Part shown: in pieces, positions 31,749-59,726 of the stretch
Layout: the number at the start of each line of letters is the position of its first letter
Position numbering within the stretch: position 1 is the first letter of the stretch
Source of the DNA: Candidatus Rifleibacteriota bacterium
Lineage (GTDB): Bacteria > Muiribacteriota > Ozemobacteria > Ozemobacterales > Ozemobacteraceae
Assembly (NCBI GenBank): GCA_012517355.1
Contig: JAAYVD010000101.1
Coordinates: forward strand, 1-64,000
Direction: 5' to 3'
DNA length: 64,000 nucleotides
The notes under the pieces: model-generated
Seen by the model: the letters and a program-made list of their open reading frames with translations, nothing else
Databases searched by the model: none
What the model was told of the DNA's origin: nothing
Made by a program: the position numbers and the translations under genes

Positions 31749-32807
31749 TCAACCCACCGGTGCCGGGGGTTCCTGTCGTTCCAGGGTCTCGTCGGGCCGG
31801 CGGCCGTTCAGCCAGACGGCGGTCCCCAGGGCCACGGCGAACCAGAGGGTGACGGCGCGGATCAGCAGGGTGGCCGACACCGCCTGCTCCCGGGCGATGC
31901 CGACGTAGAGGAACAGGCCGCCCAGGGCGCCCTCGGTGACCCCGAGGCCGCCGGGCAGGAAGGACAGGGCGCCGAGAACCGAGCTGACGGCGTGGGAGAA
32001 GACCGCGATCCCCAGCAGCTCGGGCCGGTCGACGCCGAGGGCGCGGAAGATGAAAAACAGGGCCACCCCTTCCCCCGCCCACGAGACGGCGCTCAACGGC
32101 ACGGTCAGGGCCAGCGAGGGAAGGGACAACAGGTGCCGCGAACTCTCCTGGAGCGTCTGGAATGACCTCCGAAGGGGGGCCAGCCGCGGGAACCGGCCGA
32201 CCACCGACCGGTCGAGGAACCCCCAAAAGGCCGGCCGAGAGACGAGCAGCACCAGCACGACCAGGCCGCCGCCCAGCACGACCAGTCCGCCGGTGCCGAC
32301 GGCGAAACGGCTGCTGCCCGCCAGTCCGAGGATGACCAGCCCCAGCAGGTCGGTGAGCCGCTCGGCCAGCACGATCGGGGCGGAGCGGGCCACCGGGATG
32401 CCGTAGCGGTTCCTGAGCAGCACGGATTTCATCAGTTCCCCGAGCTTGCCCGGGCTGAGCACCATGGTGAAGGCCGAGAAGAAGATCCACAGGCTGTCAC
32501 GGAGGCCGATGACGAGGCCCAGCCGGCGGAGGAAGAATTCCCATTTCAGGAACCGCAGGAGGTAGTTGAAGCCGACCGCGGCGAGGATGGCCCCCGCCCA
32601 GGCCGGGGAGATGGCCCCCAGCAGGCCGCCCACCCGTCGCACGTCGGTCACCAGGGCGGTGACGGTGATGGCCACGATCAGGGCGACGAACGCCCAGAGA
32701 CCCAGGCGGGCCCAGGGAGACAACGATGCGGCCGGGCCGGGGGCGGTGGCGACGGGGGGGACGGCCCGGGTGTCCGCGGTGCCGGGAACCGGGGATTGAT
32801 CAGGCAT
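31749..32807 (-). CDS. LPG-synthase-type integral membrane protein (UPF0104/AglD family)
   Basis: 352 aa from ATG 32807 (open further upstream but without similarity). About eight membrane helices. Family marks: VLSPGKLGELMKSVLLRNRYG after the second or third helix, APIVLAERLTDLLGLVILG, and FLPGGLGVTEGALGGLFLYVG near the end, typical of the PF03706 domain seen in MprF flippases and AglD-like proteins. There is no C-terminal LPG aminoacyl-transfer domain, so a lipid flippase or glycolipid-related role is likelier. It stands alone on the minus strand. Confidence 0.85.
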   Translation of the reverse strand: MPDQSPVPGTADTRAVPPVATAPGPAASLSPWARLGLWAFVALIVAITVTALVTDVRRVGGLLGAISPAWAGAILAAVGFNYLLRFLKWEFFLRRLGLVIGLRDSLWIFFSAFTMVLSPGKLGELMKSVLLRNRYGIPVARSAPIVLAERLTDLLGLVILGLAGSSRFAVGTGGLVVLGGGLVVLVLLVSRPAFWGFLDRSVVGRFPRLAPLRRSFQTLQESSRHLLSLPSLALTVPLSAVSWAGEGVALFFIFRALGVDRPELLGIAVFSHAVSSVLGALSFLPGGLGVTEGALGGLFLYVGIAREQAVSATLLIRAVTLWFAVALGTAVWLNGRRPDETLERQEPPAPVG

Positions 32808-32929
32808 CCTGGGTGGCCAGCCTTCCCGCACGGGGTGACCATCTGCCGGGCGGGGCAGACGCTGCGAACCGGACATTGGCCACGATGGTGCTCCACCCCC
32901 CACCTGGAATCAGAGGTGGGTATGCTACC

Positions 32930-35770: not shown

Positions 35771-38750
35771 ACGACCATCCGGCCCCGCGGCGCCCCTGGG
35801 CCTGCTCCTGGTGGTGGTGGTGGGCGCGGCCCTGGCGTGGCAGGCCGTCCTGCTCGACCGGCTCGAGGGGGACCAGGCGGCGGCGATCCGGACCGGCCGG
35901 CAGGACGAGCTGCGCAACCTGCTGCCCCTGCTGCGCCGGCGGGCCGACCCGACCGGGCTGGCCGAGGAGTTCCTCCACTCCTGCCTCGGCTATCTGAAGC
36001 CCGGCACGCCGGCAGCCTTCCGGCGGTTCGAACGGATGGTGCGGGGGACGTACGGTCAGGACCTCCTGCTCGGCCTCTGGGACGGCCCGGGTGAAGGACG
36101 GATGGTGGCGAACCTCGGGTTCACCAGTCACGAAACCTGGGTCCTGATCCGGGCGCTCAACCACCAGTATTTCAAGGAAAACAACTACTGGAGGTATTCC
36201 GAGGAGGCAACTGCCCACCTGGCCAGCCTGACGGCCGGCATCTCGGTTCTGCGCCCGGTCCATAACCTCGCCACGCTGCTGGAGGTGAGGTTCCGGGGCC
36301 GGCCGGGCCTGCTGCTGCTCGCCCTGGTCACCGACCCGGCGCGGCGGATGAACCAGTCCCTGGCGAATGCCCTGACCAACGGGCAGGCTGCCCCGCCCGC
36401 CCCCCTGCCGGTCGTCAAGGCGCGCGTGGCGATGTTCCTGCCCCGGGAGCAGTATCAAAGCCGGCGGAACATGGTCCGCGCCTGGCGGTCCCACGCGCTG
36501 GCCCGCACCCTGCCGCTGGCTGCCGGGCCGGTCGGACGACTGGAAGAATGGCTGCCCCTGGCGCCGGGCCTGCGTTCCCGCCTGAAGCGGCACCTGGCCG
36601 TCCGGTTGCAGGGGGCGGAGGTCCTGGGGGAAACCGGAGTGGTGTTCCTCCAACCGGACGGACTCCCCGGATGGGTCATGGTGCATCGCCGCGAATTCCC
36701 GCCCGTTCTGCGCCTGGCGCGGTCGCCCGGCGCGGCCGGGCTGTGGGTCCTGGTGGCTGCAGGACTGCTGGCCCTGGTCGGGGTGCGCTGTTTCCGTCCC
36801 GACTGGTGGGCCTTCGGCATCACCTGGAAGTTTCTGTTCCTGGTGCTGGTCATCGGCCTGGTGCCCGGGCTCGGCCTGGCCTGGGTGTCGTGGGCCCGGT
36901 CCGGTCTGGAGGCGGACTTCCGGGAGACGGGCCAGTTCCGGGCCTGCGAAGGGCAACTGGAAAGCCTCGAACAGTCGGTGTTCCAGAAGGTCCAGGAAAG
37001 CCTGGCCGTCGCCAAGCAGTTCGTGCGGCGGAAGATCTGGCTGGGCCCGCTGCCTCCGAGAGCGGCCATCGCTTCGATGGTCTGGGAGGCCAACAGCCGG
37101 AACGGCACCGTCCTCCAGGGTTCGGGAACCTTCGAGATCGCGACGCTCTACATCATGGGAAAGGAGTTGGCCGCCCCCCTGATGTTCAATGGCGCTCCGC
37201 CGCAGGAGGTGGCGAACCTCCTGCGGCAGGCCCACCTGCCGCCGCGCCCGGGGTTCATGAGGAGGCCGCCGGTCCGGCCGCCCAAGGCATCCGCCGCCGA
37301 ACGGACCGCCCCGTTCATCAACGGGCTGATCCGGTTCCTGGCCCGCAGTTACCAGATGGAGGCGGCTTCCACGGCCGGCCCGACCGGGGTGGCCAAGGAG
37401 GACCTGCAGGGCGGGGTCGTGTTCGACCTGTTGTCCGTCCTGGCCGGCAAGTCGCAGTTGTTGCGCATCGGCATCCAGCCTGACCGGATCCTGCCGTTCC
37501 GGCTGCTGTACGAGGTGACCTGGGCCCTGATGCACATCGTGCGCGACCAGCAGCGCCGCGCCATCCGGTTGTTCCTGGTCATCCTGGGACGGGAGCAGAT
37601 CCAGACCCGGACTTTCCTGCAACTGGTCTACGAACGGGGCCTCCACCGCAAGGATTTTCCCGAGTGCCTGTTGATGAGCGTCCTGATGCAACGGGCGGCC
37701 CTGGTCATTCCCGAGTGGTGGGACGTGTTCCCCGGGGGGATCGCCCTGCTCCGGCAGGCGATGAACGAGCAGGGGGTGCAACGGATGGTGCTTCCCCGCC
37801 CCGAAGGCGGACGGGTGCTGGCCATGGCCCGGCCCCTGCGCGGGATGGACCACGTGGCGGTGAGCCTGCGCCGCCAACCGGAGGACGACCCCCCCGACCC
37901 GGCCGCCTTCGCGTCCCGGTTGGCGCGGGCCTACCCCTTCCTGGTGGCGGTGCTGGCCGTGCTGTTCTTCCAACGGTTCTTCCTGCGGCCGGTGCGTGAA
38001 CTGCAACGCGGGGTGGAGACCATCACCGGCGGTGACTTCGAGGTGCGCCTGCCGGTGGTCACCGACGACGAGATCGGCCAGCTCTGCCAGAGTTTCAACC
38101 GCATGGCGGAAGGGGTCAAGGAAAAGGAATTCCTGCGCCGCTTCCTGTCGGACCTGGCCATGGAGGCGGTCGATGACGGCCAGGCGACGCGTGCCACCCG
38201 CCTGTCGGGGACGGTGCTGATGTCCGACATCCGCAAGTTCACCACGATCTCGGAGGAGCACGGGCCGGAAGAGGTCGTCGAGATGCTGAACGCCTACCTC
38301 ACCCTGATGGAGGAGGTGATCGAGCGCAACGGCGGCACCATCGAGAAGTTCATCGGCGACGCGATCATGGCGGTCTTCCTGCCTCTGCACGGGCGCGACT
38401 CGCCGGAGCGGCGGGCGGCCCGGACGGGTCTCGAGATGATGCGGGCCCTCGGCCGGTTCAACCGCGACCGGCACAAGCGCGGCAAGTTCACCATCGCCAT
38501 CGGGGTCGGCATCGCCACCGGCGAACTGCTGATGGGCATGCTGGGCCGGCACGACGGGCGCCGCGATTTCACCGTGACCGGCCCCACCGTCAACCGTGCC
38601 GCCGCGATGGAGAAGGTCACCAAGCAGACCCACCACACCAAGCTGGTCGTCTGCCCCGTCACTGCCGCCAACCTCGGCGTCGGGTGGGCCGTCGTGCCGC
38701 TCGCCGGCCCTGCCGAATCGCCCACCGCTTTCGAGATCGGCCTCGGCTGA
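35763..38750 (+). CDS. Membrane class III nucleotide cyclase, C1-like half of pair 1
   Basis: 995 aa. Same plan as its partner: TM 10-30, sensor, TMs about 326-346 and 352-376, second sensor, TM about 724-742, HAMP (RPVRELQRGVETITGGDF, DDEIGQLCQSFNRMAEG), cyclase about 810-990. Both metal Asp are present: Asp822 in MSDIRKFT and Asp866 in KFIGDAIMAVF. In the transition-state motif (VTGPTVNRAAAMEK) Asn944 is kept but the Arg position is Ala948. It is thus C1-like: a donor of the metal site. Overlap with the upstream gene implies coupled, near-equal synthesis, as needed for a heterodimer. Signals sensed are unknown. Confidence 0.9.
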   Translation: MFERPSGPAAPLGLLLVVVVGAALAWQAVLLDRLEGDQAAAIRTGRQDELRNLLPLLRRRADPTGLAEEFLHSCLGYLKPGTPAAFRRFERMVRGTYGQDLLLGLWDGPGEGRMVANLGFTSHETWVLIRALNHQYFKENNYWRYSEEATAHLASLTAGISVLRPVHNLATLLEVRFRGRPGLLLLALVTDPARRMNQSLANALTNGQAAPPAPLPVVKARVAMFLPREQYQSRRNMVRAWRSHALARTLPLAAGPVGRLEEWLPLAPGLRSRLKRHLAVRLQGAEVLGETGVVFLQPDGLPGWVMVHRREFPPVLRLARSPGAAGLWVLVAAGLLALVGVRCFRPDWWAFGITWKFLFLVLVIGLVPGLGLAWVSWARSGLEADFRETGQFRACEGQLESLEQSVFQKVQESLAVAKQFVRRKIWLGPLPPRAAIASMVWEANSRNGTVLQGSGTFEIATLYIMGKELAAPLMFNGAPPQEVANLLRQAHLPPRPGFMRRPPVRPPKASAAERTAPFINGLIRFLARSYQMEAASTAGPTGVAKEDLQGGVVFDLLSVLAGKSQLLRIGIQPDRILPFRLLYEVTWALMHIVRDQQRRAIRLFLVILGREQIQTRTFLQLVYERGLHRKDFPECLLMSVLMQRAALVIPEWWDVFPGGIALLRQAMNEQGVQRMVLPRPEGGRVLAMARPLRGMDHVAVSLRRQPEDDPPDPAAFASRLARAYPFLVAVLAVLFFQRFFLRPVRELQRGVETITGGDFEVRLPVVTDDEIGQLCQSFNRMAEGVKEKEFLRRFLSDLAMEAVDDGQATRATRLSGTVLMSDIRKFTTISEEHGPEEVVEMLNAYLTLMEEVIERNGGTIEKFIGDAIMAVFLPLHGRDSPERRAARTGLEMMRALGRFNRDRHKRGKFTIAIGVGIATGELLMGMLGRHDGRRDFTVTGPTVNRAAAMEKVTKQTHHTKLVVCPVTAANLGVGWAVVPLAGPAESPTAFEIGLG

Positions 38751-40026: not shown

Positions 40027-41523
40027 ATGGCCCCCGCCGACCTGACTCTTCTCAACCTGAACCTGCTCTACGTCAGGTATCTTGAAGGGGTCGACCGCGA
40101 ACTGCACGTCCCCCTCGGCTGCCTGTACCTGACCCGCGCCCTCGAGGATGCCGGGTTCTCCGTCGATTTCCGCGATTACCAGCTGAACGCCTTCGCCGAA
40201 CCCTTTGCCGTCGAACGCATCGTCGAATACCTGGCCGACCCGGCGCCGGTGATCGGGTTTTCGGTGATGGCCAACCTGCTGCCCTTCGCGCTGCTGGCGA
40301 TGAAGGGGGTGAAGGAGCGGTATCCCGACCGTTTCCTGGTGCTGGGCGGGGTCGGTTCGAAGGCGGTCGAGGAGCAGATCATGACCCGCTTTCCGTGGGT
40401 CGACGCGATCGCGGTGGGCGAAGGGGAACGGACCGGCCCAGAGATGATGCGGGCCCTGAAGGAAGGGGGCGACCTGGGGGCGGTGCGCGGCCTGGTGGTG
40501 CGCGGGCCGGGCGGCGCGGTCAGGCGCACCCCGCCCCGGGAGCGCATCCGCGACCTCGACGCGATCCCCTTCCCCGCCTTCGACAAGGTGGACCTGTCGC
40601 GCTACCAGGGCTACGGACTGATGTCGACGCGCGGCTGCCCCTACCCGTGCACGTTCTGCTCGGTGGCCCCGGTCTGGGACCACGACTCGACCTTCCGGTC
40701 GGTCGACAACATCGTGGCCGAAATGCGGCACCTGCACCAGCGGGCGGGGGTGAAGATGTTCCTGTTCCAGGACGAGTTCTTCGTCTGCAACAAGACGAAG
40801 GTGCTGGCCTTCTGCCGGAAGCTGCGCGAGACCGGCCTGCCGGTCATGTGGAAGGCGTTCGGCCGGGTCGACCTGACGGACCGCGAGATGATGGACGCGA
40901 TGGCCGGCGCCGGCTGCGTCGAACTGCGGTTCGGCATCGAGAGCGGTTCCGACCGGCTGCTGCAGCTGGTCAAGAAGGGGTTCACCGCCGAGCAGGCGAT
41001 CGCCCGGGTCAGCGAGGCGGTGACGGTCTTTCCGCGGGTCGATGCGTTCTACATGTGGGGGTTCCCGTTCGAGACGATGGACGACTTCCACCAGACGGTC
41101 TTCCAGATGGTGATGCTGCGCACCATGGGGGCGCGCATCCTGCCGTCGATGCTGTGCCTGCTGCCGCAGACCGAGCTGTTCCGCGAGAACCGCGACCGCT
41201 ACCCCCTCGATTTCAGCCCGACCCTGTTTCCGGAATACATGATCACCGGCCACGAGATCAGCCACCTGTCGCACTTCCAGGTGGCCCCCGCGCACCGGCC
41301 GATCTACGAGTTCATCCAGGCCAACCCCGACATCTTCCCCGGGTTCTTCCACATGGACCTGGCCAACAACATCCTGCCCAAGCTGAAGATCCTCAAGAAA
41401 TTCGGCTTCTATCCCGAAGACAGGGAGGACACGTCCGGCACCGAATCGTGCGGGGCCCATTCGCCGCGCACGACGGCGGGGCCGGGCCTCGCCACGCGGG
41501 TGGCGGACGAGGCGGCCGGGTAG
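40027..41523 (+). CDS. B12-binding-type radical SAM protein
   Basis: 498 aa, 3 nt after the STN gene. N-terminal Rossmann-like domain (LHVPLGCLYLTRALEDAGFSVDFRDY, with FLVLGGVGSKAVEEQIM), lacking the DxHxxG that holds cobalamin. Then the radical SAM core: STRGCPYPCTFCSVAP (C-x3-C-x2-C), FLFQDEFFVCN, GCVELRFGIESGSDRLLQLVKKG, FYMWGFPFETMDDF. The C-terminal ~130 residues are helical with a disordered tail. Similar enzymes perform methylation or other radical modifications of lipids, peptides and natural products. Pairing with the leader-like gene suggests a protein or peptide substrate, but this is unproven. Confidence 0.88.
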   Translation: MAPADLTLLNLNLLYVRYLEGVDRELHVPLGCLYLTRALEDAGFSVDFRDYQLNAFAEPFAVERIVEYLADPAPVIGFSVMANLLPFALLAMKGVKERYPDRFLVLGGVGSKAVEEQIMTRFPWVDAIAVGEGERTGPEMMRALKEGGDLGAVRGLVVRGPGGAVRRTPPRERIRDLDAIPFPAFDKVDLSRYQGYGLMSTRGCPYPCTFCSVAPVWDHDSTFRSVDNIVAEMRHLHQRAGVKMFLFQDEFFVCNKTKVLAFCRKLRETGLPVMWKAFGRVDLTDREMMDAMAGAGCVELRFGIESGSDRLLQLVKKGFTAEQAIARVSEAVTVFPRVDAFYMWGFPFETMDDFHQTVFQMVMLRTMGARILPSMLCLLPQTELFRENRDRYPLDFSPTLFPEYMITGHEISHLSHFQVAPAHRPIYEFIQANPDIFPGFFHMDLANNILPKLKILKKFGFYPEDREDTSGTESCGAHSPRTTAGPGLATRVADEAAG

Positions 41524-45914: not shown

Positions 45915-48863
45915 GTGACTTGGGAGGAGGTGGGAGGGAAATCCGCCGTTCTGGCCCTACCCTCGGCGGCCCGGCGTTCGTTCCTCCTGCTGCTGGGAGT
46001 CGTGCTGCTCACCGTTGTTCCGGTCGTGCTGCTGTTCTGGCAGAGCGCCCGGCGCACCGAATGGCGGATCGACCGGATGCGCCAACATTGGCAGCGCCGC
46101 GCCCTCGCCGCCATCGACGACTTCCGCCTGGGCTACACCTTCGAGGCCCAGGTCGATGAGCAGTTCGATGCCGTGTTGCGGGGGGTGGGCACAGTGGTCC
46201 GGCGCGCGGAGACCGCCCCGGACCGGTGGGGCCGGGCGCTGGCGCGGGCGTTCACCCGCAGCGTCCCGCCCTCGCACCGGCCGGCGGGCACCCGCCTGTT
46301 CGGTTTCGAGTTGGCCGCCGACGGCACCTGTCGGCCCCTGCGGGGTCTGGGACTGGCCACAGCCGGGGGGCGGGTGCTGGGCGACCTGGTGGGGGGGGCC
46401 TGCCACCCCGAACGCCTGGGAGGCGATGCCCGCAAGCGCCTGGACAACCGGTGCCTGGGCCTGTTCGGGACGTTCGTCACCTTCGACCTTTTTTCCACCC
46501 TGGGTCGGGGCCGCCTGCTGCCCGTGCGGTTCGACGGCCGCAACTCCTGGATCTACTGGGACTTCGTGTCCCGCCCCGATGGCACCGGCCTGGCTTTCTT
46601 CGCCGCCTGGCCCCGCTCCGCGGCCCGCACGGCCGCCCCCCTGGCCCATGCCCTGGACCGGGCACGGGGGGAGCGTCGCGAGTTCCTGCCGCTGCTGGTG
46701 CCGATCGAGAACGCCAGCACCACCCACCGCGTCCACGCCCTGCCCGGCACCCTTCCCCGGCCTCTCCTCCGGCGGTTGGGGCAATCCCTGATCGCCCCCC
46801 CGGACCGGGAGCGCCGGATTCCCCCCGCCATGGCCAACGCTTCCTTTCCCGGGTTCTGGATCGTCCGCGACGCCGTCCACCGAAACCTTCCCTATGAACT
46901 GTGGCTGCTGACCAGGCTGCCTCCAGGCCTGGGCCGGGTTCCCCTGCCCCCCGAAGGGTTCCTGCTGGCCGTGCTGGTCGGGGGGATGTGGGTGACCTGG
47001 TTCTTCCGCACCGTGCTCCTCGGGCTTCCCGGTGGGGTCTCGCTGCGGACGTGGTTCCTCGGTTTCTTCCTGCTCGCGGGGGCGTTGCCGTTGACGGTGC
47101 TGCACCTTCTTGGGTCCTTTCTGATCGACAACGGGGCGCAGCGCCGCATGGAGGACGCCGTCGGCCGGACGTTGCGGTCCCTCGAGGAGGTCGATGCCGG
47201 CAGCGGCATCCTGCTGACCCAGTTCAGCCAGGTCTGCCGGGAGCGGATGGAATCGGCGGCCTGGCGGGCCGAGATGCGGTCGCACCCCTGCGACCAGGCG
47301 ACGCCGGGGTTGCAGGCCATGTTCGAAGGGTTTGCCGACCGGGGCTTCCCCCTGCGATTCTGCCTGGCCTTCCGGTACGGTCGCGATATCTCGAAGCTGG
47401 TCGCCCCCGGGCTTCCGCCCACGACCACGCGGGGGTTCCTCGACTTCTTCCTGCCCCTCATGGAAGGGATCGCGATCCGGGAGAGCCGGGCGAAGGAGGC
47501 GGCCGTCCAGGCCAGCCTCTCCGATGCGGAGAAGTATCTCCTGCGGGCGATCGACTACTCGCTGAACCCCTCCATCTACCCCGACTTCTACCATCTGCGC
47601 GACCGGGCCCAGGTGTTCACCGAGGGGCTCGACAACACCCTCTGGTACTACGATTTCGTCTCGGCCAGCCAGACCCTCGACATGGGCATCATGTTCCGGG
47701 CCGAGGCCCGGCCGGCCTTCCAGGCCTACCTTTCCCACACCCTGAAGCAATTGTGGGAGCGGAACCGGGACTGGCACCTGCTGGCCGGCAGCCGGCGGCC
47801 CGGGGGGCTGGGGGTGGAGATCCGCCTGCGCGGACAGGCCGACGGGTTCACCGGCGTGGGGCGGTTGTGGCGGAGCATGCAGGGGGCGGTGCGCGGCTTC
47901 GAACCCCGCATCCAGGTCGGGGCCACCGAGGCGCGTCTGGCCTATCCCTGCCGGCACCTGCCGGGGTTCGTGGTGGGGGTGGTGGTCCCCTTCCAGGGGA
48001 TCCAGGCCGACGCCGTCCAGGCCCGCCTGGTGTTGCAGTGGGCGATGGGACTGATCCTGGTGGCCATGGTGCTGCTGGCGGCCGGCGTGGGCCGCCACCT
48101 GCTCGACCCGTTGCGCCGGCTCGAGGAGAGCCTGAACCGGGTGGCGGGAGGTGATCTGTCGACCCGGGTCGGGCTGTCCCGCGACGACGAGCTCGGGGCG
48201 GTGACGGCGGCCTTCGACCAGATGATCGAGGGCTGGCGGGCCCGTCGCGACCTTGGGCGGTTCGTGTCGGGGACGTTGGACCTGGCCGAGGAGGGGGCGG
48301 GGGAAGGGGCGGCCCGCGCCGTGGAGGGCGCCATGCTGGTGTCCGACATCCGGAGTTTCACCACCCTCACCGAGGAGCATCTTCCCGAGGCGGTGGTGGG
48401 CATGCTCAACCGCCACCTCGACGCCATGGCGACCGCCATCAGCGAGGCGGGGGGCCGGGTCGACCGGTTCGTGGGCGACGCGGTCATCGCCGCCTTCTTC
48501 GGGCCGACCCCCGCCGACGCGGCGCGGCAGGCGGTGCGGGGTGCGGCCCTGATGCGGCGGGCGCACCAGGAGCTCCAGGCCCGGCGTGCGGCGGCGGGCG
48601 AGTTCGGCTACGAGATCGGGATCGGGATCGACCTGGGCCCGATCGTGCTGGGGACCTTCGGCTCGGACCGGCGCCGGGAGCGGGCGGCCATCGGCCCGAC
48701 GATGAAGGGGGCCGAACACCTGGAGGCGATATCGAAGGAAGGGCGTTCCACCCGGATCGTGGTGGCCCCGGCGGTGCGCCAGGCCTGCCCCGGGGTCTCC
48801 TTCCGACCCCTGGACGGGGAAGCGGGGTGGGAACTGACCGACCTGGCGGAGGTGATCGGATGA
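45915..48863 (+). CDS. Membrane class III nucleotide cyclase, C1-like half of pair 2
   Basis: 982 aa from GTG 45915. TM about 21-42, sensor, TMs about 349-371 and 381-401, second sensor, TM about 705-728, HAMP (DPLRRLEESLNRVAGGDL, DDELGAVTAAFDQMIEG), cyclase about 800-975. Metal aspartates are intact: Asp811 (VSDIRSFT) and Asp855 (FVGDAVIAAF). The catalytic Asn and Arg are both lost: Lys931 and His935 in PTMKGAEHLE. The base-recognition Lys is Arg851. In mammalian C1 the same Asn and Arg positions are altered, the latter also to His. So it supplies only the metal half. ATGA overlap with the next gene couples translation. Confidence 0.9.
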   Translation: MTWEEVGGKSAVLALPSAARRSFLLLLGVVLLTVVPVVLLFWQSARRTEWRIDRMRQHWQRRALAAIDDFRLGYTFEAQVDEQFDAVLRGVGTVVRRAETAPDRWGRALARAFTRSVPPSHRPAGTRLFGFELAADGTCRPLRGLGLATAGGRVLGDLVGGACHPERLGGDARKRLDNRCLGLFGTFVTFDLFSTLGRGRLLPVRFDGRNSWIYWDFVSRPDGTGLAFFAAWPRSAARTAAPLAHALDRARGERREFLPLLVPIENASTTHRVHALPGTLPRPLLRRLGQSLIAPPDRERRIPPAMANASFPGFWIVRDAVHRNLPYELWLLTRLPPGLGRVPLPPEGFLLAVLVGGMWVTWFFRTVLLGLPGGVSLRTWFLGFFLLAGALPLTVLHLLGSFLIDNGAQRRMEDAVGRTLRSLEEVDAGSGILLTQFSQVCRERMESAAWRAEMRSHPCDQATPGLQAMFEGFADRGFPLRFCLAFRYGRDISKLVAPGLPPTTTRGFLDFFLPLMEGIAIRESRAKEAAVQASLSDAEKYLLRAIDYSLNPSIYPDFYHLRDRAQVFTEGLDNTLWYYDFVSASQTLDMGIMFRAEARPAFQAYLSHTLKQLWERNRDWHLLAGSRRPGGLGVEIRLRGQADGFTGVGRLWRSMQGAVRGFEPRIQVGATEARLAYPCRHLPGFVVGVVVPFQGIQADAVQARLVLQWAMGLILVAMVLLAAGVGRHLLDPLRRLEESLNRVAGGDLSTRVGLSRDDELGAVTAAFDQMIEGWRARRDLGRFVSGTLDLAEEGAGEGAARAVEGAMLVSDIRSFTTLTEEHLPEAVVGMLNRHLDAMATAISEAGGRVDRFVGDAVIAAFFGPTPADAARQAVRGAALMRRAHQELQARRAAAGEFGYEIGIGIDLGPIVLGTFGSDRRRERAAIGPTMKGAEHLEAISKEGRSTRIVVAPAVRQACPGVSFRPLDGEAGWELTDLAEVIG

Positions 48864-51800
48864 ACCTCCCGACAGGGGCCCCGGTGACCGGCGGGGTGGC
48901 GGGCGGCACCACCACGACGGGGGCCCCGGTGACCGGCGGGGTGGCGGGCGGCACCACCGCGACAGGGGCCATGGAGCCTGGCGGGGTTGGTGCCAGTTCC
49001 CCGGCCTCGCGGGGGGACCCGTCCCCGAGGGCCTCGTCTCCCATGGGAACCCGTCTCTTCCTGGCTTTCTTCTGGGTGATCTCGCTGGCGTTGCCGTCGC
49101 TGGTCGCCTTCTACGAGGGCCACGCGGCGCGAGGTCTGGAGCAGGAGGCGGCGGACGAAGCGCTGGCCGAGAGCGGCCAGCGGTGGTTGGAAACCCTGCA
49201 GCGGACCGCTCTGAGCGAGGTCAAGATCCGGCGTGCGCTCCTCGATTTCCTGGAAAAGAGCGAGGAATACACCAGGAACCTCCTCCAGGAGCGGACCCCT
49301 CCCGATGCCAGAACCTGGGAAAAGGCCATGCAGGGCTACTACCGCAACCACCTGGCGAACTGGATGCCTCCCCACGACCTGGTCTGGGTTGGTTCCGACA
49401 GCCTTCCGGTGCCGGCCCGGTTCACCGTCGACGGTGGACTGGGCCTCACCTCGAGCAAGGAGTTCGCCTCGTCCCGGTGGGTCGATGCGGTCACGGGCAG
49501 GAAGGCCGAGGGGAACCTGGGCCGGACGCTCACCCGCATCCTGCGCACCCCGCTGATCTTCCCCCAACGTGGCCAGATCCACGGGTTTCTTCACGTGTTC
49601 CGGGCCGAGGAGGGGATTCGGGGGTGGTTCTGTGCCACCAGCCGGGGCGGGGCCCTGGCCCTGGTGGTCGATCTCGACCGGCTCGATCCCCACCTGGGGA
49701 TGCGGCTGTTGACCGAGGCTCCGCCGGAGGAGGGTTGGGAGGTCGGGTTCTTCCCCCGCGGTCCGGGCAAACCCCTGGTGACCCCTGGTCTCCGGCGGCA
49801 ACCAAGCCTGGTCGGGGAGTTGGCGTCGGCGATCCCCGACGTCGGGGCCCTGCCCGAACTGCTGGTGGTGGATGGCCGGCGGGTCTTCGTCGGCGACGTG
49901 GCCGGCAACATGGCCTGGCGGGCGATGGTCCTGTTCCCCCCGAACCTGGCGGGCCGGATGACGGGGGGCGAGATGGCGGCCTGGGCGGCCGGCCTTTCCC
50001 TTGTTCTGGTCCTGGCCGGGTGGGGGGCCTGGCGGTTCCTGGCGGGGGGGGGGCTCCGGCTGAGCGTCGGCCTGGTCATGCTCTGGGCCTGCCTGTGGCT
50101 GGTCCTGCTGCCGCTGTCGGGCATCCGGACCGTGGCCCGGCAGGCCACCGCGGAGTTCGGCCGGACGCTGAACCAGGAGCGGGCGCAAGAGGTGCACGAG
50201 GAGATGCTCCGGCTGGACTCCGGCGTCCGGTTCATGGAGGCCGCCCTGGTCAACCACCTGAAGACCCAGGCCCGCCGGCCCGACCTCGCCGCGCGGTTGC
50301 GGAAAGGGGTTTCCCCCAAGGTTCTGCAGACGACCCTGAAGGAACTTTCCTGGATCGCCCGGCCCCCGCCGCCGTTTCCCTCGACGGGAGCGCTCGACTT
50401 CATGGTGGCCAGCGACCGGGCGGGGTTCCAGGCTGCCCTCAGCTTCAAGCGGGGCCTGGCGGAACAGCAGGCCAGCGGCAGTACCGAGCTGGCGGCGGCC
50501 TTCGGGCCATTCCTCCGCAAGATCCTGGTGCGGGCCGCCGACGAGCCCGATGCCCCCGTGGGTGGGACCGGCGGGCGGGTGGGCGGGGACCCGTCCTGGA
50601 AGAAGGCGTTAGAGGAAGAGACGTTCGCCTCGATCATGGCCAGCCTGCTGGGCGGGCAGGCGGTGCTGCAGATCCTGAACAATCCCGGGAAGGTCGGGGA
50701 GGTGAAGACCAGCCACCTGCGGGTCGATTTTCTGCCGACCCTCCTCGGCCCCCCGTCGCGTCGCCCGGAAAGCCTGATCTTCTGGGCCTACGGGGACTGG
50801 GTAGGTTTCAACTATCTCGACTGGAAACTGGCTCCCGAAAGTGATGGTCGGGCCAATGTCGAGAACGCCCCGATCAGCGGGTTGCCCTGGAACCGGCGGG
50901 CCCTGGACCCGGCTTCCGCTTCCGTTCGGGTGACCGACGGCTGGATGGTGGGGGTGATGGGGGAATACACCACGACCCGCACGGTGTCCCCTGGGTTCGA
51001 GCCGCCCGCCTCGATGCTGAGCGCGTTCGAGCAGCTGCGCCGGGCCGAGCTGGGTCGCCGGTTCCGCGACACCTCCCTGCCGGGCCAGCCCCTGATGCAG
51101 TTCATGCCCGGGTTCCTGCTGCCCCGGTTCATGCTGGCCCGCCTGCGGACGACGGACGACCTGGCCCGTCGCGAAGCCGCCCTGGGCGGGCAGGTGGCGG
51201 TGGTCTCGGGGGCCTTCCTGGTCCTCGCCTTCGCGCTGGCCTGGGCGGCGCGACGGCGATTTCTCGAGCCGCTGCAGGTGATCCAGGCGGGGGTTGGCGA
51301 GATCGGTCGTGGCAACTTCTCCGCCCGCCTCGACCTGCCCACCGGCGACGAGTTCGAGGCGGTGGCGCGCGCCTTCAACGCCATGGGAATGGCCCTCGCC
51401 GAGGGCCGCATTTTGGGGCGCTACGTGTCGGAGACGGTCCGGCGGGCGGTCCAGGACCGGTCGTTCCAGGAAATGGCCCGGCGTGGCGAGCGGCGCGAGG
51501 TGACGGTGCTGTTTTCGGGCCTGCTGCCCGGCGCGGGCCGGGCCGCCGAGGAGGATCCCATCGGGATTTGCGCCGAGCTGGGCCGGCATCTCGATGCGTG
51601 CAGCGAGGCGGTGGCAGCCGAGGGCGGGGAGATCGACAAGGTCATCGGGGAAAAGATCCTGATGGTGTTCGATCACGGCCGGTTGGGCGATGGTGACCAG
51701 GCCACGGCGGCAGCCCTGGCGGTGGTGGCACGGGTGCGGGCCACGCTGGCCGTCTCCGGTCTGACGGCCGCGATGGGGCTCGATGCCGGCGGGGCGGTCG

Positions 51801-52030
51801 CCGGCATCCTCGGCTCCTCGCAGGTGCGGGAGGATTACACGGTGATCGGCGACACCGTCAACCTGGCGGCCCGCCTGGCCGCGCTGGCTCCCGATGCCGG
51901 AGGGTCACGGGTGGTCCTGTCGGGGGCGATCCTCGACCTGGCCGGCGGCCGGGTGCGGGCGGCTCGCCTGCCGGTGAACCGGGTCAAGGGGAAGAAGCGC
52001 GAGGTGGAAGCCTTCCTGCTGGTCGACTGA
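48860..52030 (+). CDS. Membrane class III nucleotide cyclase, C2-like half of pair 2
   Basis: 1056 aa from ATG 48860. The N-terminal cytoplasmic tail has a 15-residue tandem repeat (TGAPVTGGVAGGTTT). TM about 62-85, sensor, TMs about 375-397 and 400-423, second sensor, TM about 775-800, HAMP (EPLQVIQAGVGEIGRGNF, GDEFEAVARAFNAMG), cyclase about 880-1050. Both metal aspartates are lost: Gly887 (LFSGLLPG) and Glu931 (VIGEKILMVF). Lys927, Thr994, Asn1001 and Arg1005 (VIGDTVNLAARL) are intact. It complements its partner exactly. Loss of the metal half with retention of the Asn/Arg half is what mammalian C2 shows. Probable product cAMP from Lys/Thr signature; untested. Confidence 0.9.
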   Translation: MNLPTGAPVTGGVAGGTTTTGAPVTGGVAGGTTATGAMEPGGVGASSPASRGDPSPRASSPMGTRLFLAFFWVISLALPSLVAFYEGHAARGLEQEAADEALAESGQRWLETLQRTALSEVKIRRALLDFLEKSEEYTRNLLQERTPPDARTWEKAMQGYYRNHLANWMPPHDLVWVGSDSLPVPARFTVDGGLGLTSSKEFASSRWVDAVTGRKAEGNLGRTLTRILRTPLIFPQRGQIHGFLHVFRAEEGIRGWFCATSRGGALALVVDLDRLDPHLGMRLLTEAPPEEGWEVGFFPRGPGKPLVTPGLRRQPSLVGELASAIPDVGALPELLVVDGRRVFVGDVAGNMAWRAMVLFPPNLAGRMTGGEMAAWAAGLSLVLVLAGWGAWRFLAGGGLRLSVGLVMLWACLWLVLLPLSGIRTVARQATAEFGRTLNQERAQEVHEEMLRLDSGVRFMEAALVNHLKTQARRPDLAARLRKGVSPKVLQTTLKELSWIARPPPPFPSTGALDFMVASDRAGFQAALSFKRGLAEQQASGSTELAAAFGPFLRKILVRAADEPDAPVGGTGGRVGGDPSWKKALEEETFASIMASLLGGQAVLQILNNPGKVGEVKTSHLRVDFLPTLLGPPSRRPESLIFWAYGDWVGFNYLDWKLAPESDGRANVENAPISGLPWNRRALDPASASVRVTDGWMVGVMGEYTTTRTVSPGFEPPASMLSAFEQLRRAELGRRFRDTSLPGQPLMQFMPGFLLPRFMLARLRTTDDLARREAALGGQVAVVSGAFLVLAFALAWAARRRFLEPLQVIQAGVGEIGRGNFSARLDLPTGDEFEAVARAFNAMGMALAEGRILGRYVSETVRRAVQDRSFQEMARRGERREVTVLFSGLLPGAGRAAEEDPIGICAELGRHLDACSEAVAAEGGEIDKVIGEKILMVFDHGRLGDGDQATAAALAVVARVRATLAVSGLTAAMGLDAGGAVAGILGSSQVREDYTVIGDTVNLAARLAALAPDAGGSRVVLSGAILDLAGGRVRAARLPVNRVKGKKREVEAFLLVD
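48874..48963 (+). repeat. In-frame 45-nt tandem duplication in cyclase N-terminal tail
   Basis: Two 45-nt units (48874-48918, 48919-48963) with only a few differences, and the start of a third. They add 15 residues per copy to the cytoplasmic tail. Confidence 0.92.
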
Positions 52031-54440: not shown

Positions 54441-54638
54441 ATGTCCAAGATACCGACAGAACGGTTCGAGGAACAGGAGGGAATCCCCGGCCAGGCCAGC
54501 CGCCCGGCAGGGGAACCACCAGTCGACCCCGCCCCCTGGCACCTGCTGCCGCCCGTGTTGGCGGCCGCCGCCGGCACCCCGTTCGCGGGTCTGGCCGGCA
54601 ACCAAATCCGTGAGGCACTCGCGAGGAAACGAAGATGA
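54441..54638 (+). CDS. Possible 65-residue leader peptide overlapping prkA start
   Basis: ATG 54441 lies about 6 nt after the predicted transcript start, so it would be nearly leaderless; the TGA overlaps the prkA ATG (ATGA). The product opens SKIPTERFEEQEG, then Pro/Ala-rich sequence and a basic end. No domain recognised. Coupling geometry is its only support. Confidence 0.35.
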   Translation: MSKIPTERFEEQEGIPGQASRPAGEPPVDPAPWHLLPPVLAAAAGTPFAGLAGNQIREALARKRR

Positions 54639-56683
54639 GCTTGACGCTGAAGAACTACCTGAAGGAACTGAAGGAAGGGAAGCACCTGTTTGAAAACGTC
54701 TTCCAGACCGTGTCACGCATGATCCTGGAGGATCCGGCGAAGGTCGAGAAGGTGCTGGTCAACGGCAAGACCGTCTACGACTTCAAGGTCTTTCGCGACT
54801 GCCGGCGGCCGGTCATCGGCATGTACGAGTTGATCAACAGCTTCGTTTCCTACGTGAAGGACGCGGCCGAAGGGGGTTCTTCGCGCGAGATGGCGTTCGT
54901 GCTGGTCGGCGAGCCGGGCAACGGCAAGACCTTCTTCGTCGACAAGGTGATGGAATTGTATCGGAACTTCCTGTCACAGGATCGCAATCGCAAATTCACC
55001 TTCCGGTTCAAGGGGCTCGACGCGATCAAGGAGAAATACGGCAAGCTGGCCACCATCGAGTCGCAGACCTACGAGGATCCGGTCATCCTGGCCATGAATC
55101 TGTACCCGACGGTCGAGGAGAACCGCAAGTTCCTCGCCGGGCACGGGTTCACCGACAAGCAGCTCAACGCCTTCTGGGCCAACTACCGCCCGCTGGGGGC
55201 CTGCAGCGAATACATCAAGAGCGACATCCTTGAATTCACGAAGCAGGACTACGACAAGCTGGTGAAGGACTTCATCGAGATCGTGCCCGTCCCCCTGAGC
55301 GGGGAACTCGGCACCATCACCGGCAAATACCAGGCGAAGGACAAGATCACCAGCTCCGGCGCCGACCTCGTCGGCGAGGAGTCGGTGCAGCGCCTGCTGT
55401 ATCTTTCCGACAGCAACAACCCCTACCGCTACGACTTGCGCCGTGGCGTGCTGGCCCGCGTGGCGGGCGGCGGCATCCACTTCAGCGACGAGTTGTTCAA
55501 GAACAAGACCGACCTGGTGCAGATCTACCTGGGGGTCATCCAGAACCGCGAGATCGAGCTGAACGCGTTCAAGTGGCCCATGGACACGCTGATCATCGCC
55601 ACCAGCAACATCGTCGAATACCAGAAGTTCATCGACAACAAGGAGCAGGCCCCGATCTACGACCGCTGCAAGATCTTCTACGTTCCCCACAACACCAACT
55701 ACAAGCTGCAGGAGCACCTGACCCGCCTCTCGATCGGGTCGAGCACCAAGACCACCCTGCAGGGCCGCAGCCTGCACGAGGACCCCAACCTCAACTACGC
55801 CCTGTCGACCGCGGTCGTGCTGACCCGCCTGCCCGCCGACGAACGGCTCAACCCCCGCGAGATGCTGCAGCTCAGCGCCGGCGAGGTGGCCGGCGAGAAG
55901 AGCATCAAGACCCTGGCCGAGATCATCGAGGAGCTGAGCAAGCGGCCGAAGATCAACGAGCGGTTCGGCCACTCCGGCATCGGCCAGCGCGGCCTGGGCC
56001 GGGCCATCCAGTTCCTGCTCAGCCTGAACGAGACGCACGAGGAGGAATGCATGTTCGGGGGCAGCGCCTTCGACAGCATCCGCCGCGAGATCTACGACAG
56101 CACGACCGACAAGAAGGAACAGGAGTGGTGCCTGAAGGTCCTCGAGATGGCCGAAGGGCTGTACAAGGAGAAGGTCAAGACCGAGATCTTCAACGCCTAC
56201 ATGAACGATCCCGAGGCGATCCGGAAGGAAGTGATGAACTACGTCAACATGGTCGTGGTCAGCAGCGACGACAGCGGCCCCGACAAGGTGGTGCGCATCC
56301 GGGAGGGCGGGCTCGAGAAGCCGCTGAAGATCGACGAGACCTTCATCAACGGGGTCGAGCAGCGGCTCGGCCTGACCACCAAGGAGATGAAGGATCAGCA
56401 CCGCGCGCAGATCCGGGCCATCTACGCCCGCCGGGTCACCCAGGACCCCAACTACTGCTTCATGGACAACGAGAAGCTGAAGAAGGCGGTCACCGAGTTC
56501 CGTCTCAACACCGACATCTCCGGCGCCGGCTCGCTGGCAGGGGCGCTGGCCAACCCGACCAACGAGGAGAACAAGAAGCTGTTCGACCGCCTGTTCACGG
56601 TGATGATCGACAAGCTGCACTACTGCAAGACCTGCGCCCGCAAGACCCTGGAGTTCTACTGCAAGCCTGACAGCAACAAGTAG
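54635..56683 (+). CDS. prkA: Serine protein kinase PrkA (YeaG family)
   Basis: 682 aa, usual length for the family. N-terminal AAA+ domain: Walker A GEPGNGKTFF at about 92-101, then FRFKGLDAIKEKYG, Walker-B/sensor region GGGIHFSDELFKNKTDLVQ, and DTLIIATSNIVEYQKF. The C-terminal PrkA kinase-like domain includes FGHSGIGQRGLGRAIQFL and a late Cys pair (LHYCKTCARKTLEFYC). In E. coli YeaG acts with YeaH and YcgB in stress adaptation; in Bacillus PrkA affects sporulation, with evidence for both kinase and Lon-like protease activity. The same set follows here in order. ATG 54635 is preceded by gaggaaacgaag. Confidence 0.95.
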   Translation: MSLTLKNYLKELKEGKHLFENVFQTVSRMILEDPAKVEKVLVNGKTVYDFKVFRDCRRPVIGMYELINSFVSYVKDAAEGGSSREMAFVLVGEPGNGKTFFVDKVMELYRNFLSQDRNRKFTFRFKGLDAIKEKYGKLATIESQTYEDPVILAMNLYPTVEENRKFLAGHGFTDKQLNAFWANYRPLGACSEYIKSDILEFTKQDYDKLVKDFIEIVPVPLSGELGTITGKYQAKDKITSSGADLVGEESVQRLLYLSDSNNPYRYDLRRGVLARVAGGGIHFSDELFKNKTDLVQIYLGVIQNREIELNAFKWPMDTLIIATSNIVEYQKFIDNKEQAPIYDRCKIFYVPHNTNYKLQEHLTRLSIGSSTKTTLQGRSLHEDPNLNYALSTAVVLTRLPADERLNPREMLQLSAGEVAGEKSIKTLAEIIEELSKRPKINERFGHSGIGQRGLGRAIQFLLSLNETHEEECMFGGSAFDSIRREIYDSTTDKKEQEWCLKVLEMAEGLYKEKVKTEIFNAYMNDPEAIRKEVMNYVNMVVVSSDDSGPDKVVRIREGGLEKPLKIDETFINGVEQRLGLTTKEMKDQHRAQIRAIYARRVTQDPNYCFMDNEKLKKAVTEFRLNTDISGAGSLAGALANPTNEENKKLFDRLFTVMIDKLHYCKTCARKTLEFYCKPDSNK

Positions 56684-56692
56684 GCGCCCGCG

Positions 56693-58039
56693 ATGAACGA
56701 GCGCAACCAGCATCCGCTCGACCCCCTCTCGCAGCAGGGTCGGCGGCCGGACCTGACCCCGGAGCAGCGCGCCAGCCTCGAACGGGACCGGCGCGGCACC
56801 GTCGCGCAGATCCTGGCCGCCGAGGAGGGGAAGGGCCTCTACGACCACACCGACGAGTTCTTCTTCCCCAACGCCGGCGTGCCCACCATGAACATCCAGA
56901 CCCTCGACGAACTCCTCGAGCGCGACAAGCAGCGCGCCGCCGACGGCTTCCCGAAGAAGGTCATCCTGGGCAAGATCGCCAGCCAGGGCGGCAAGAAGGC
57001 CGTCATCGTGCCGAGCGTCACCGAGGAGAAGTTCTACCACGACACCCGGCCCAAGATGCCGGGCCAGGGCGGTGACGAGGGCGGCAGCGGCGAGGGCGAG
57101 GAGGGCGAGGTGATCGGCGAGTCGCCGATCAAGGAGGAGCAGCAGGGCGGCGGCCAGGGCGCCGGCGACCAGAGCGGGGGCGAGGGGCATGAGCTCGACG
57201 ACTCGCGCGCGCTGGAGATCGGCAAGGCCCTGACCGAGAAGTTCAACCTTCCCAACATCCAGCAGAAGGGCAAGAAGACGGCGCTGTTTCGCTACACCTA
57301 CGAACTGACCGACATCAACCGCAAGTTCGGCCAGTTCCTCGACAAGAAGCGCAGCCTGAAGAACATCATCAAGACCAACCTGCTGCTGGGCACCTTCACG
57401 CCCGACGACGTGAAGTTCGACAAGATCGTGGTGTCGCCGGTCGACCTGGTCTACCGCATCGTCTCGCCCGAGAAGGAATACGAGTCGCAGGCGATGGTCT
57501 TCTTCCTGCGCGACTACTCGGGGTCGATGTATGGCGACCCGACCGAAGTGGTGCTGTCGCAGCACGTATTGATCTATTCCTGGCTTTTGTACCAGTATCA
57601 GGAACGCGTCGAGAAGCGGTTCATCCTGCACGACACCGACGCCCGCGAGGTCGACAACTTCGTCAGCTACTACCGGCTGAACAACGGGGGCGGCACCAAC
57701 ATCGCCTCGGCCTACAAGCTGGTCAACAAGATCGTCGAGACCGAGGATCTGGCGAAGGACTACAACATCTACATCTTCCAGGGCACCGACGGTGACGACT
57801 GGGACTCCGACGGCAAGGAGTCCCTGCCCGAGATCGAGAAGATGCTGACCTACGTCAACCGCATGGGCATCACGGTGGTCAGCCGCACCCCTGGCCAGAT
57901 GAACACCCAGATCGAGAAGTACCTCGACAAGTCGGGCCTGCTGAAGAAATCCCCCCACCTGCTCAAGATGACCGCCCTGGCCGAGACCGCCCGCAACCAG
58001 GACGAATTGATCAAGAGCATCCGCGACCTGGTCGAGTAA
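56693..58039 (+). CDS. yeaH: YeaH/YhbH family protein (DUF444)
   Basis: 448 aa. N-terminal Pro/charged segment, then GTVAQILAAEEGKGLYDHTD. An acidic Gly-rich low-complexity run (about 122-165) separates this from the C-terminal von Willebrand factor A-like domain, where MVFFLRDYSGSMYGDPTE gives the DxSxS metal site and GTNIASAYKLVNKIVE the downstream Thr. FQGTDGDDWDSDG is a further acidic loop. Known partner of PrkA and SpoVR in widely conserved operons. It starts 10 nt after prkA. Acts in the cytoplasm; the exact biochemical role is not established. Confidence 0.94.
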   Translation: MNERNQHPLDPLSQQGRRPDLTPEQRASLERDRRGTVAQILAAEEGKGLYDHTDEFFFPNAGVPTMNIQTLDELLERDKQRAADGFPKKVILGKIASQGGKKAVIVPSVTEEKFYHDTRPKMPGQGGDEGGSGEGEEGEVIGESPIKEEQQGGGQGAGDQSGGEGHELDDSRALEIGKALTEKFNLPNIQQKGKKTALFRYTYELTDINRKFGQFLDKKRSLKNIIKTNLLLGTFTPDDVKFDKIVVSPVDLVYRIVSPEKEYESQAMVFFLRDYSGSMYGDPTEVVLSQHVLIYSWLLYQYQERVEKRFILHDTDAREVDNFVSYYRLNNGGGTNIASAYKLVNKIVETEDLAKDYNIYIFQGTDGDDWDSDGKESLPEIEKMLTYVNRMGITVVSRTPGQMNTQIEKYLDKSGLLKKSPHLLKMTALAETARNQDELIKSIRDLVE

Positions 58040-58049
58040 CGGAGCCGCC

Positions 58050-59726
58050 ATGGAACTGCTCATCCTGAAAGACAAGCTGATCATGGAGGAGTGCAAGCGC
58101 ATCGCGCGCGACCACGGCCTCCGGTTCAGCGACGAGACCATCGAGTACGTCACGACCAACGAGGACATGATCCGGCTCAGCCCCAAGGGGATGATCCCGA
58201 CCATGTACGACTACTGGGTCCATGACGTCTACGTGCTGCAGGACAAGGGAAAATACGACCTCTACCCGCACAACCCCTACGAGACCGTGATCAACACCCG
58301 TCCGCCGCTGTCGTTCTACAACGACAACAACCCGGACTGGCTGAACATCATGATCTTCTACCACGTCATCGCGCACATCGACTTCTTCCAGAACAACGTG
58401 TTCTTCGCCAAGACCTGGAGCGACGATTTCTGCGGCCGGGCCCTGGCGCATGCCAACGTGATCAAGGAACTGCGCTACGAAAAGGGGCGGTGGGTCGATT
58501 ACGTCATCGAGTTCGCCCGGAACATGGACAACCTGGTCGACTTCGCGGGGGATCTCGCCCGCCCCGGGGAGACGAAGACGGTGAGCGTGGCCGAGGCCAA
58601 GTTCAACTACTTCTTCGACGAGTATCTGCAGGAAGTGGTGAAGGTGAACACCTTCCGGTACGTCGAGGAGCTGAACCGGTATAACGAGCTGGCCGCGAAG
58701 AACGACCCGGCCACCGCGCGCAACCTGTTCCTGGCCTACGTCGACCAGAAGTTCGTCGATTTCGCGCTGAAGTTCGAGAAGCGCATCAAGACGAGGAAGC
58801 GAGTGCCCGGCGACGTCATGGAATACGTGATGGAGCATTCGACGAAGCTGAACAAGGCCGAGAACGACTGGATGAAGCACGTCATCCAGATCGTGCGCGA
58901 GACCTCGCTGTACTTCCAGCCGCAGATCCGCACCAAGATCCTGAACGAGGGATGGGCCAGCTACTGGCACGAGAAGCTGTTTCTGGCCGACCCGCGCCTG
59001 CGCACCCACGAGTTCGACTTCAGCCGGATCAACGCCGGTGTCGTTTCGCTGTCGCGGGTCGGGTTGAACCCCTACGCGGTCGGGCTGCGGATGTTCAAAT
59101 ACCTGGAAGCCAAGGCCGATCGCGGCATGCTGACCTACGATTTCGAGAAGGTCGGTGACTACGAGGCCCGCAAGGCGTACGACCAGAAGACCGGGGCCGG
59201 CCGGCAGTTCATCTTCGATGTCCGCACCTACCATGCCGACGCCACGGCCATCAACCAGTTCATCGACCAGGATTTCGTCAACGAGTTCAACCTGTTCGTG
59301 GTGGGCAAGCGGATCAACAAGAGCCGCACGGCGTGGGAATACTACATCAAGAGCCGGCGGGCCGAGGACTACAAGAAGAAGATGCTCGAATCGCTCTACC
59401 ACCCGCCCCAGATCCGGGTCGACCAGGAGATCACGGCCAACTCCGGGGCCCTGTACCTCGTCCACACCTTCGAGGGCAAGGAGCTGGTGCGTGAATACAT
59501 CCCCAACACCATGTTGGGCATCGAGTTCCTGTGGGGCGGCAAGGTCATCCTCGAGACCCACGAGATCGACGTCAGCTCCTTCGAGGACATGAACCGCGAG
59601 GACCTCGAAAAGTACTTCCAGGAAGCCGAGAAGGTGACCCTGAAGTGGCAGAAGGTCCGCTACACCATGCAGGACAGGCAGCTGTCGCGGGAAGTCATGA
59701 GCACGAGCGTGGAGAAGCCGGCATGA
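58050..59726 (+). CDS. spoVR: SpoVR family protein
   Basis: 558 aa, 11 nt after yeaH. Conserved SpoVR blocks: FYHVIAHIDFFQNNVFFAKT, ALAHANVIKEL, LNEGWASYWHEKLF, VGLRMFKYLEAKADRG and LYLVHTFEGKELVREY. The His-rich HVIAH...H and E-x-W-x-x-Y-W-H motifs suggest a metal or nucleotide site but no reaction is known. Required for spore cortex formation in Bacillus; in non-sporulating bacteria (YcgB) linked to stress and slow growth through the PrkA set. The stop overlaps the second prkA-like gene (ATGA). Confidence 0.95.
   Translation: MELLILKDKLIMEECKRIARDHGLRFSDETIEYVTTNEDMIRLSPKGMIPTMYDYWVHDVYVLQDKGKYDLYPHNPYETVINTRPPLSFYNDNNPDWLNIMIFYHVIAHIDFFQNNVFFAKTWSDDFCGRALAHANVIKELRYEKGRWVDYVIEFARNMDNLVDFAGDLARPGETKTVSVAEAKFNYFFDEYLQEVVKVNTFRYVEELNRYNELAAKNDPATARNLFLAYVDQKFVDFALKFEKRIKTRKRVPGDVMEYVMEHSTKLNKAENDWMKHVIQIVRETSLYFQPQIRTKILNEGWASYWHEKLFLADPRLRTHEFDFSRINAGVVSLSRVGLNPYAVGLRMFKYLEAKADRGMLTYDFEKVGDYEARKAYDQKTGAGRQFIFDVRTYHADATAINQFIDQDFVNEFNLFVVGKRINKSRTAWEYYIKSRRAEDYKKKMLESLYHPPQIRVDQEITANSGALYLVHTFEGKELVREYIPNTMLGIEFLWGGKVILETHEIDVSSFEDMNREDLEKYFQEAEKVTLKWQKVRYTMQDRQLSREVMSTSVEKPA

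Follow-up and report, generated by a model that had tools for sequence, protein, structure and literature searches.

Complementary C1- and C2-type class III cyclase chains in Candidatus Riflebacteria: probable heterodimers resembling the animal adenylyl cyclase core

A 64,000-nucleotide stretch of the draft genome of a Candidatus Rifleibacteriota bacterium (assembly GCA_012517355.1, contig JAAYVD010000101.1, positions 1 to 64,000), referred to here as the window, contains at 45915-52030 two overlapping genes, designated pair 2, that very probably encode two mutually dependent chains of a class III cyclase heterodimer functioning in the manner of the C1:C2 core in animal adenylyl cyclases (ACs). 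Pair 2 belongs to a family of which the members are best read as obligate C1:C2 heterodimers and fused pseudoheterodimers that would each contain one ATP site. In a 2022 review a fused dimeric class III cyclase was stated to be unknown in bacteria, the duplication and fusion were placed in early eukaryotes, and the advantage of the fused dimer was regarded as an open question (PMC9552081). No earlier report of bacterial heterodimeric or fused class III cyclases, or of Riflebacteria cyclases, was found in the open literature, subscription papers being mostly outside its coverage. Within the family, natural bacterial examples of every stage occur by the dozen, and because homodimer, coupled pair and fusion occur within one lineage, the advantage of the fused dimer becomes directly testable by comparison. 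Moreover, the pairs offer candidate two-input cyclic AMP (cAMP) switches as well as bacterial models of the C1:C2 core.

An active site divided between two membrane proteins

Both genes of pair 2 are real open reading frames (ORFs) on the forward strand, encoding a C1-type protein of 982 residues (ORF 1, 45915-48863, start codon uncertain) and a C2-type protein of 1056 residues (ORF 2, 48860-52030, counted from the ATG at 48860). The start of ORF 2 lies on the stop of ORF 1 in an ATGA overlap (48860-48863) that is preceded by a strong GGAGGTG ribosome site and is a predicted translational coupling of the two genes. Both chains display the same order of parts: two periplasmic modules, one between the first transmembrane (TM) segment and a TM2-TM3 hairpin and the other between this hairpin and TM4, are followed by a HAMP domain and the cyclase domain. 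In the C1-type protein, which was characterized by Pfam domains, TM prediction and an AlphaFold model (predicted local distance difference test score, pLDDT, 84), the TM segments span residues 12-48, 349-372, 379-406 and 700-733, the HAMP domain residues 725-772 (48087-48230, E 5e-13), and the catalytic domain positions 48330-48860; in the C2-type protein the HAMP domain is found at 51251-51397 (E 2.5e-10) and the catalytic domain at 51470-52027. The Guanylate_cyc domain (PF00211) scored 33.4 and 24.8 bits in the two chains against a curated cut-off of 21.9, which places both in class III; the HAMP matches likewise exceeded their Pfam threshold.

The C1-type chain retains the metal-binding Asp811 and Asp855 but has Arg851 for the base-selecting Lys, Ala924 for the base-selecting Thr, and Lys931 and His935 in place of the transition-state Asn and Arg. 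The C2-type chain has Gly887 and Glu931 at the positions of the metal-binding Asp residues and retains Lys927, Thr994, Asn1001, Arg1005 and a VKGK tail. Neither chain alone holds the complete catalytic set (Asp, Asp, Lys, Thr/Asp, Asn, Arg), which is assembled at one interface only when the two are combined. Misalignment as the cause of this residue pattern was considered and ruled out, as the catalytic residues of pair 2 share columns with CyaC in a MAFFT alignment, and the same columns were recovered independently when profiles of the C1- and C2-type domains were aligned with each other (probability 100). A preceding sequence-only reading of this DNA had proposed a complementary division of labour in pair 2, and a class III active site split across two chains is indeed what was found; the residue numbers it gave were all correct, Ala924 having gone unmentioned.

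In the proposed mechanism the C1-type chain would supply both metal-binding Asp residues and the C2-type chain the purine-recognising Lys and Thr together with the transition-state Asn and Arg, and of the two sites in the C1:C2 dimer one would be a productive ATP site and the other dead. Each chain brings two periplasmic modules of its own, along with four TM segments and a HAMP domain, so that two different sensors could gate a single cAMP output. Cyclase activity, cAMP as the product and sensing are properties that we infer for the pairs from their residues and architecture.

The two periplasmic modules of ORF 1 (46056-48002) each comprise approximately 300 residues and display weak mutual similarity (85% probability). 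They adopt a mixed alpha/beta fold in the AlphaFold model. Pfam and PDB sequence searches gave no relative of the pair-2 modules, neither a Cache domain nor another known sensor domain, and the 50 Foldseek matches listed for the C1-type model were all cyclases, with no fold match for the sensor modules.

Recurrence of complementary pairs

All PF00211 domains in the window's own genome, a 7.1 Mb draft, were listed, and selection within this genome is hence unbiased. The listing gave 87 matches (88 domains after an additional search); 31 domains stand alone and the others make up 28 tandem loci. Every domain of the 28 tandem loci is degenerate and every pair is complementary. The residue pattern is not due to chance, because none of the 57 tandem or fused domains is canonical, versus 28 of the 31 stand-alone domains; the stand-alone exceptions are located on contigs C112, C50 and C166. 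At 12 of the 28 tandem loci a single ORF of approximately 1,600-2,700 residues, in some cases truncated at the end of a contig, encodes C1 followed by C2. Pair 2 is a set of two coupled genes with single-polypeptide homologues at 12 loci in its own genome and 21 elsewhere.

The approximately 88 class III domains of this one 7.1 Mb genome compare with a maximum of 30 isozymes per strain in published work. The genome also contains 24 cyclic-nucleotide-binding (cNMP-binding) domain matches, which would be compatible with extensive cyclic-nucleotide signalling. One locus (G000:C20:8646-18525, L032) has three adjoining cyclases in the order C1-C1-C2, i.e., one additional C1-type chain.

Together with relatives, which are Candidatus Riflebacteria, 69 complete pairs were assembled. 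The relatives were found with a C2 profile, so recurrence beyond the own genome represents a biased sample; two of the initial pairings (L107_964 and L171_842) were ends of preceding fused genes and were corrected for the co-evolution analysis. Both metal-binding Asp residues are present in 69/69 C1 domains, and Lys, Thr, Asn and Arg are each present in 69/69 C2 domains. Every C1 domain lacks Asn and/or Arg and every C2 domain lacks at least one metal-binding Asp, the reciprocal C1/C2 pattern being found in all 69 pairs, including the window pair. A KG[K/R/V] motif near the C-terminus, which presumably holds the phosphate-binding Lys of mammalian C2, occurs in 62/69 C2 and 7/69 C1 domains.

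Fused genes account for 32 of the 69 pairs, all in the order C1-C2. Among the 37 split pairs, 27 overlap by exactly four bases (ATGA or GTGA), and 34 lie within 30 bases of each other. The fusion of homologous pairs provides strong evidence that the split chains meet. Moreover, mirror-tree analysis of C1 and C2 partner distances yielded a correlation of r = 0.80, versus a maximum of 0.23 in 2000 permutations, and within the own genome 0.68 versus at most 0.37. The existence of fused single-chain forms and the co-evolution of partners sustain the earlier proposal that selection acts on heterodimers.

Recurrence in independent genomes and named records ruled out an assembly artefact. No pair of the C1/C2 kind was present outside the Riflebacteria among the loci listed in a scan of a genome collection, and in 80 genomes from beyond the phylum the 30 top-ranked loci were all canonical, by which a general property of bacterial tandem cyclases was rejected. 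At one locus (L080, G003:C152:15000-34500) three fused C1-C2 cyclases with near-identical residue codes lie head to tail and are apparently recent duplicates.

Likeness to animal cyclases and origin of the split

Like the mammalian enzymes AC1-AC9 (M1-C1-M2-C2), the bacterial pairs consist of two homologous halves, each with a membrane part and a catalytic domain and joined in one chain in the fused forms. In both, C1 keeps the metal-binding Asp residues and C2 keeps Lys, Asn and Arg, and all bacterial fused forms follow the mammalian C1-then-C2 order. In the C1 domain of AC5, Thr takes the place of Asn and His that of Arg, and the Arg-to-His change is also that of the pair-2 C1 domain. In contrast, the mammalian halves have six TM segments, whereas a bacterial half has four, combined with two large periplasmic modules and a HAMP domain, and the base-selecting residues are Lys/Asp in the mammalian enzymes but Lys/Thr in the bacterial pairs. 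These differences in TM number, HAMP domain and base-selecting residues place the pairs outside the mammalian transmembrane AC family. In addition, the bacterial pairs are nested among bacterial cyclases, comprise many split genes and number approximately 28 per genome.

The homodimeric bacterial cyclases CyaC, CyaB and Rv1625c share the catalytic fold and, in CyaB and Rv1625c, membrane anchoring, but there a single chain bears every catalytic residue and the homodimer contains two sites (PMC9552081), which sets them apart from the chains of pair 2. Mammalian soluble AC (sAC, ADCY10) is likewise a single-chain pseudoheterodimer, and mammalian soluble guanylyl cyclase (sGC) alpha/beta an obligate two-chain heterodimer, each with one productive site; both differ in being soluble, eukaryotic and equipped with other regulatory domains.

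The bacterial C1 profile matches C1 of AC5, AC8, AC9 and sAC as well as VC1, but not IIC2, and the C2 profile matches C2 of AC5, AC8 and sAC as well as IIC2. The C1 profile prefers sAC C1 and sGC alpha, and the C2 profile sAC C2 and sGC beta. The parallel with mammalian C1 and C2 drawn in the sequence-only reading is upheld, and the bacterial profiles pick the matching halves of AC5, AC8 and sAC. This correspondence is read as convergence in the residues kept rather than as shared descent of the C1/C2 split, because the C1 and C2 domains of the bacterial pairs branch within canonical cyclases of bacteria. An AlphaFold model of a fused relative (L092, pLDDT 79) had human AC5, AC9 and AC8 as its best Foldseek matches, with query-normalised TM-scores of 0.30-0.34, compared with approximately 0.15 for single-domain matches; the pair-2 C1-type protein alone gave matches of single-domain size only (0.15-0.19). 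The scores of the fused model fit two catalytic domains arranged as they are in the animal enzyme.

In trees built with the catalytic columns left out, C1 halves clustered with C1 and C2 halves with C2, the latter group including one long-branched canonical row, and both groups adjoin canonical Riflebacteria cyclases. The sensor modules are homologous across C1, C2, split, fused and a canonical solo family of contig C48. A homodimeric ancestor resembling the canonical solo cyclase on contig C48 may have been duplicated in tandem, after which the copies would have lost complementary halves of the active site and many pairs would later have fused as C1-C2, a course that would account for both the tree groups and the homologous sensor modules.

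Pair 1 of the window, on the forward strand, consists of a C2-type protein (32726-35770) with Gly834 that retains Lys874, Asp878, Thr949, Asn956 and Arg960, and a C1-type protein (35763-38750, overlapping its partner gene by 8 bases) that retains Asp822, Lys862, Asp866, Thr937 and Asn944 and has Ala948 in place of Arg. Its order (32726-38750) is C2-C1, as had been noted, opposite to that of pair 2, and the C2-first order is shared with loci on C160 and C85. The additional suggestion that two gene orders reflect two origins is supported only in part. In the larger trees the C1 domains of both pairs fall into one group and their C2 domains into another, so that one split followed by a gene-order inversion would be the simplest account, but approximately unbiased (AU) tests rejected neither one nor two splits. 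That the two pairs split independently is doubtful: a separate pair-1-type clade was not rejected (AU p 0.80 and 0.36) and the pair-1-type sensor modules are distant from the rest, but an all-C2 clade was likewise not rejected (AU p 0.86), and two larger quick trees placed the pair-1 domains with other C1 and with or beside other C2 domains.

Stronger evidence of a second origin lies in another Riflebacteria family (f3; L252, L261-L271) of 14 pairs, all in the order C2-C1, including a tandem array C2-C1-C2-C1-C2-C1 (L252). Its C2 domains have both Asp residues lost or replaced and its C1 domains mostly read Asp-Arg-Asp. The best maximum likelihood tree joins its C1 with its C2 (one-origin AU p 0.17), and its sensors match nothing in the family of the window pairs (f1), both of which point to, without proving, what is possibly a second, independent origin of C1/C2 pairs. 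In family f5 (L251, L254) a canonical cyclase adjoins one that has lost only the second metal-binding Asp (to Gly), a possible half-way stage. We hold with moderate confidence that the animal-type C1/C2 pseudoheterodimeric adenylyl cyclase arose independently in the Riflebacteria, on two or more occasions (f1 and f3), and that homodimeric relatives, coupled C1/C2 gene pairs and single-chain fusions coexist in one genome, with approximately 28 two-sensor cAMP switches in total.

Partner choice, product and neighbouring genes

Pairing could in principle be promiscuous, with any C1-type chain joining any C2-type chain in a combinatorial network instead of fixed pairs. All 28 pairs have the same fold and lie in the same membrane, domains of one type show 33-52% identity to their counterpart in pair 2, and the catalytic residues would be kept under fixed and mixed pairing alike. 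This is nevertheless unlikely, as the mirror-tree correlation, ATGA coupling and fusion indicate fixed partners. A product other than cAMP, such as cyclic GMP or another cyclic nucleotide, appears improbable: specificity is read from two residues only, but this base-selecting pair is Lys/Thr in 69/69 C2 domains. Lys/Thr is the pattern of ATP-specific bacterial class IIIb enzymes, and guanylyl cyclases carry Glu/Cys. Finally, although some C1 domains retain almost nothing except the metal-binding Asp residues, it is highly improbable that the degenerate domains are dead pseudocyclases acting as receptors or scaffolds, with cAMP produced by canonical solo cyclases only, since random loss would be expected in that case, yet 69 diverged pairs keep Asp/Asp in C1 and Lys/Thr/Asn/Arg in C2, a non-random retention that argues for selection on one intact composite site.

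Several observations weigh against the interpretation of the family as obligate C1:C2 dimers. The erosion of C1 is uneven, with Arg kept in 13/69, Asn in 2/69 and Lys in 23/69 domains, and in three C2 domains an Asp aligns with the first metal position while the second is lost, although the alignment of the one on C94 is uncertain. The stand-alone domain on C112 (G000:C112:23829-26255; L061, L259) is of the C2 type, with Gly, Lys, Asp, Thr, Asn and Arg, and no second cyclase domain was detected in the surrounding 12.5 kb. In AC9 the stretch best matched by the C2 profile is C1, an exception among the animal enzymes, and the dimer geometry of the fused AlphaFold model is read from TM-scores, at a global predicted TM-score (pTM) of 0.61.

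Elsewhere in the window, a B12-binding radical SAM protein is encoded between the two cyclase pairs (40027-41523), and genes for a PrkA kinase, a DUF444 protein and SpoVR lie in a row at 54635-59726, forming a known three-gene cluster.

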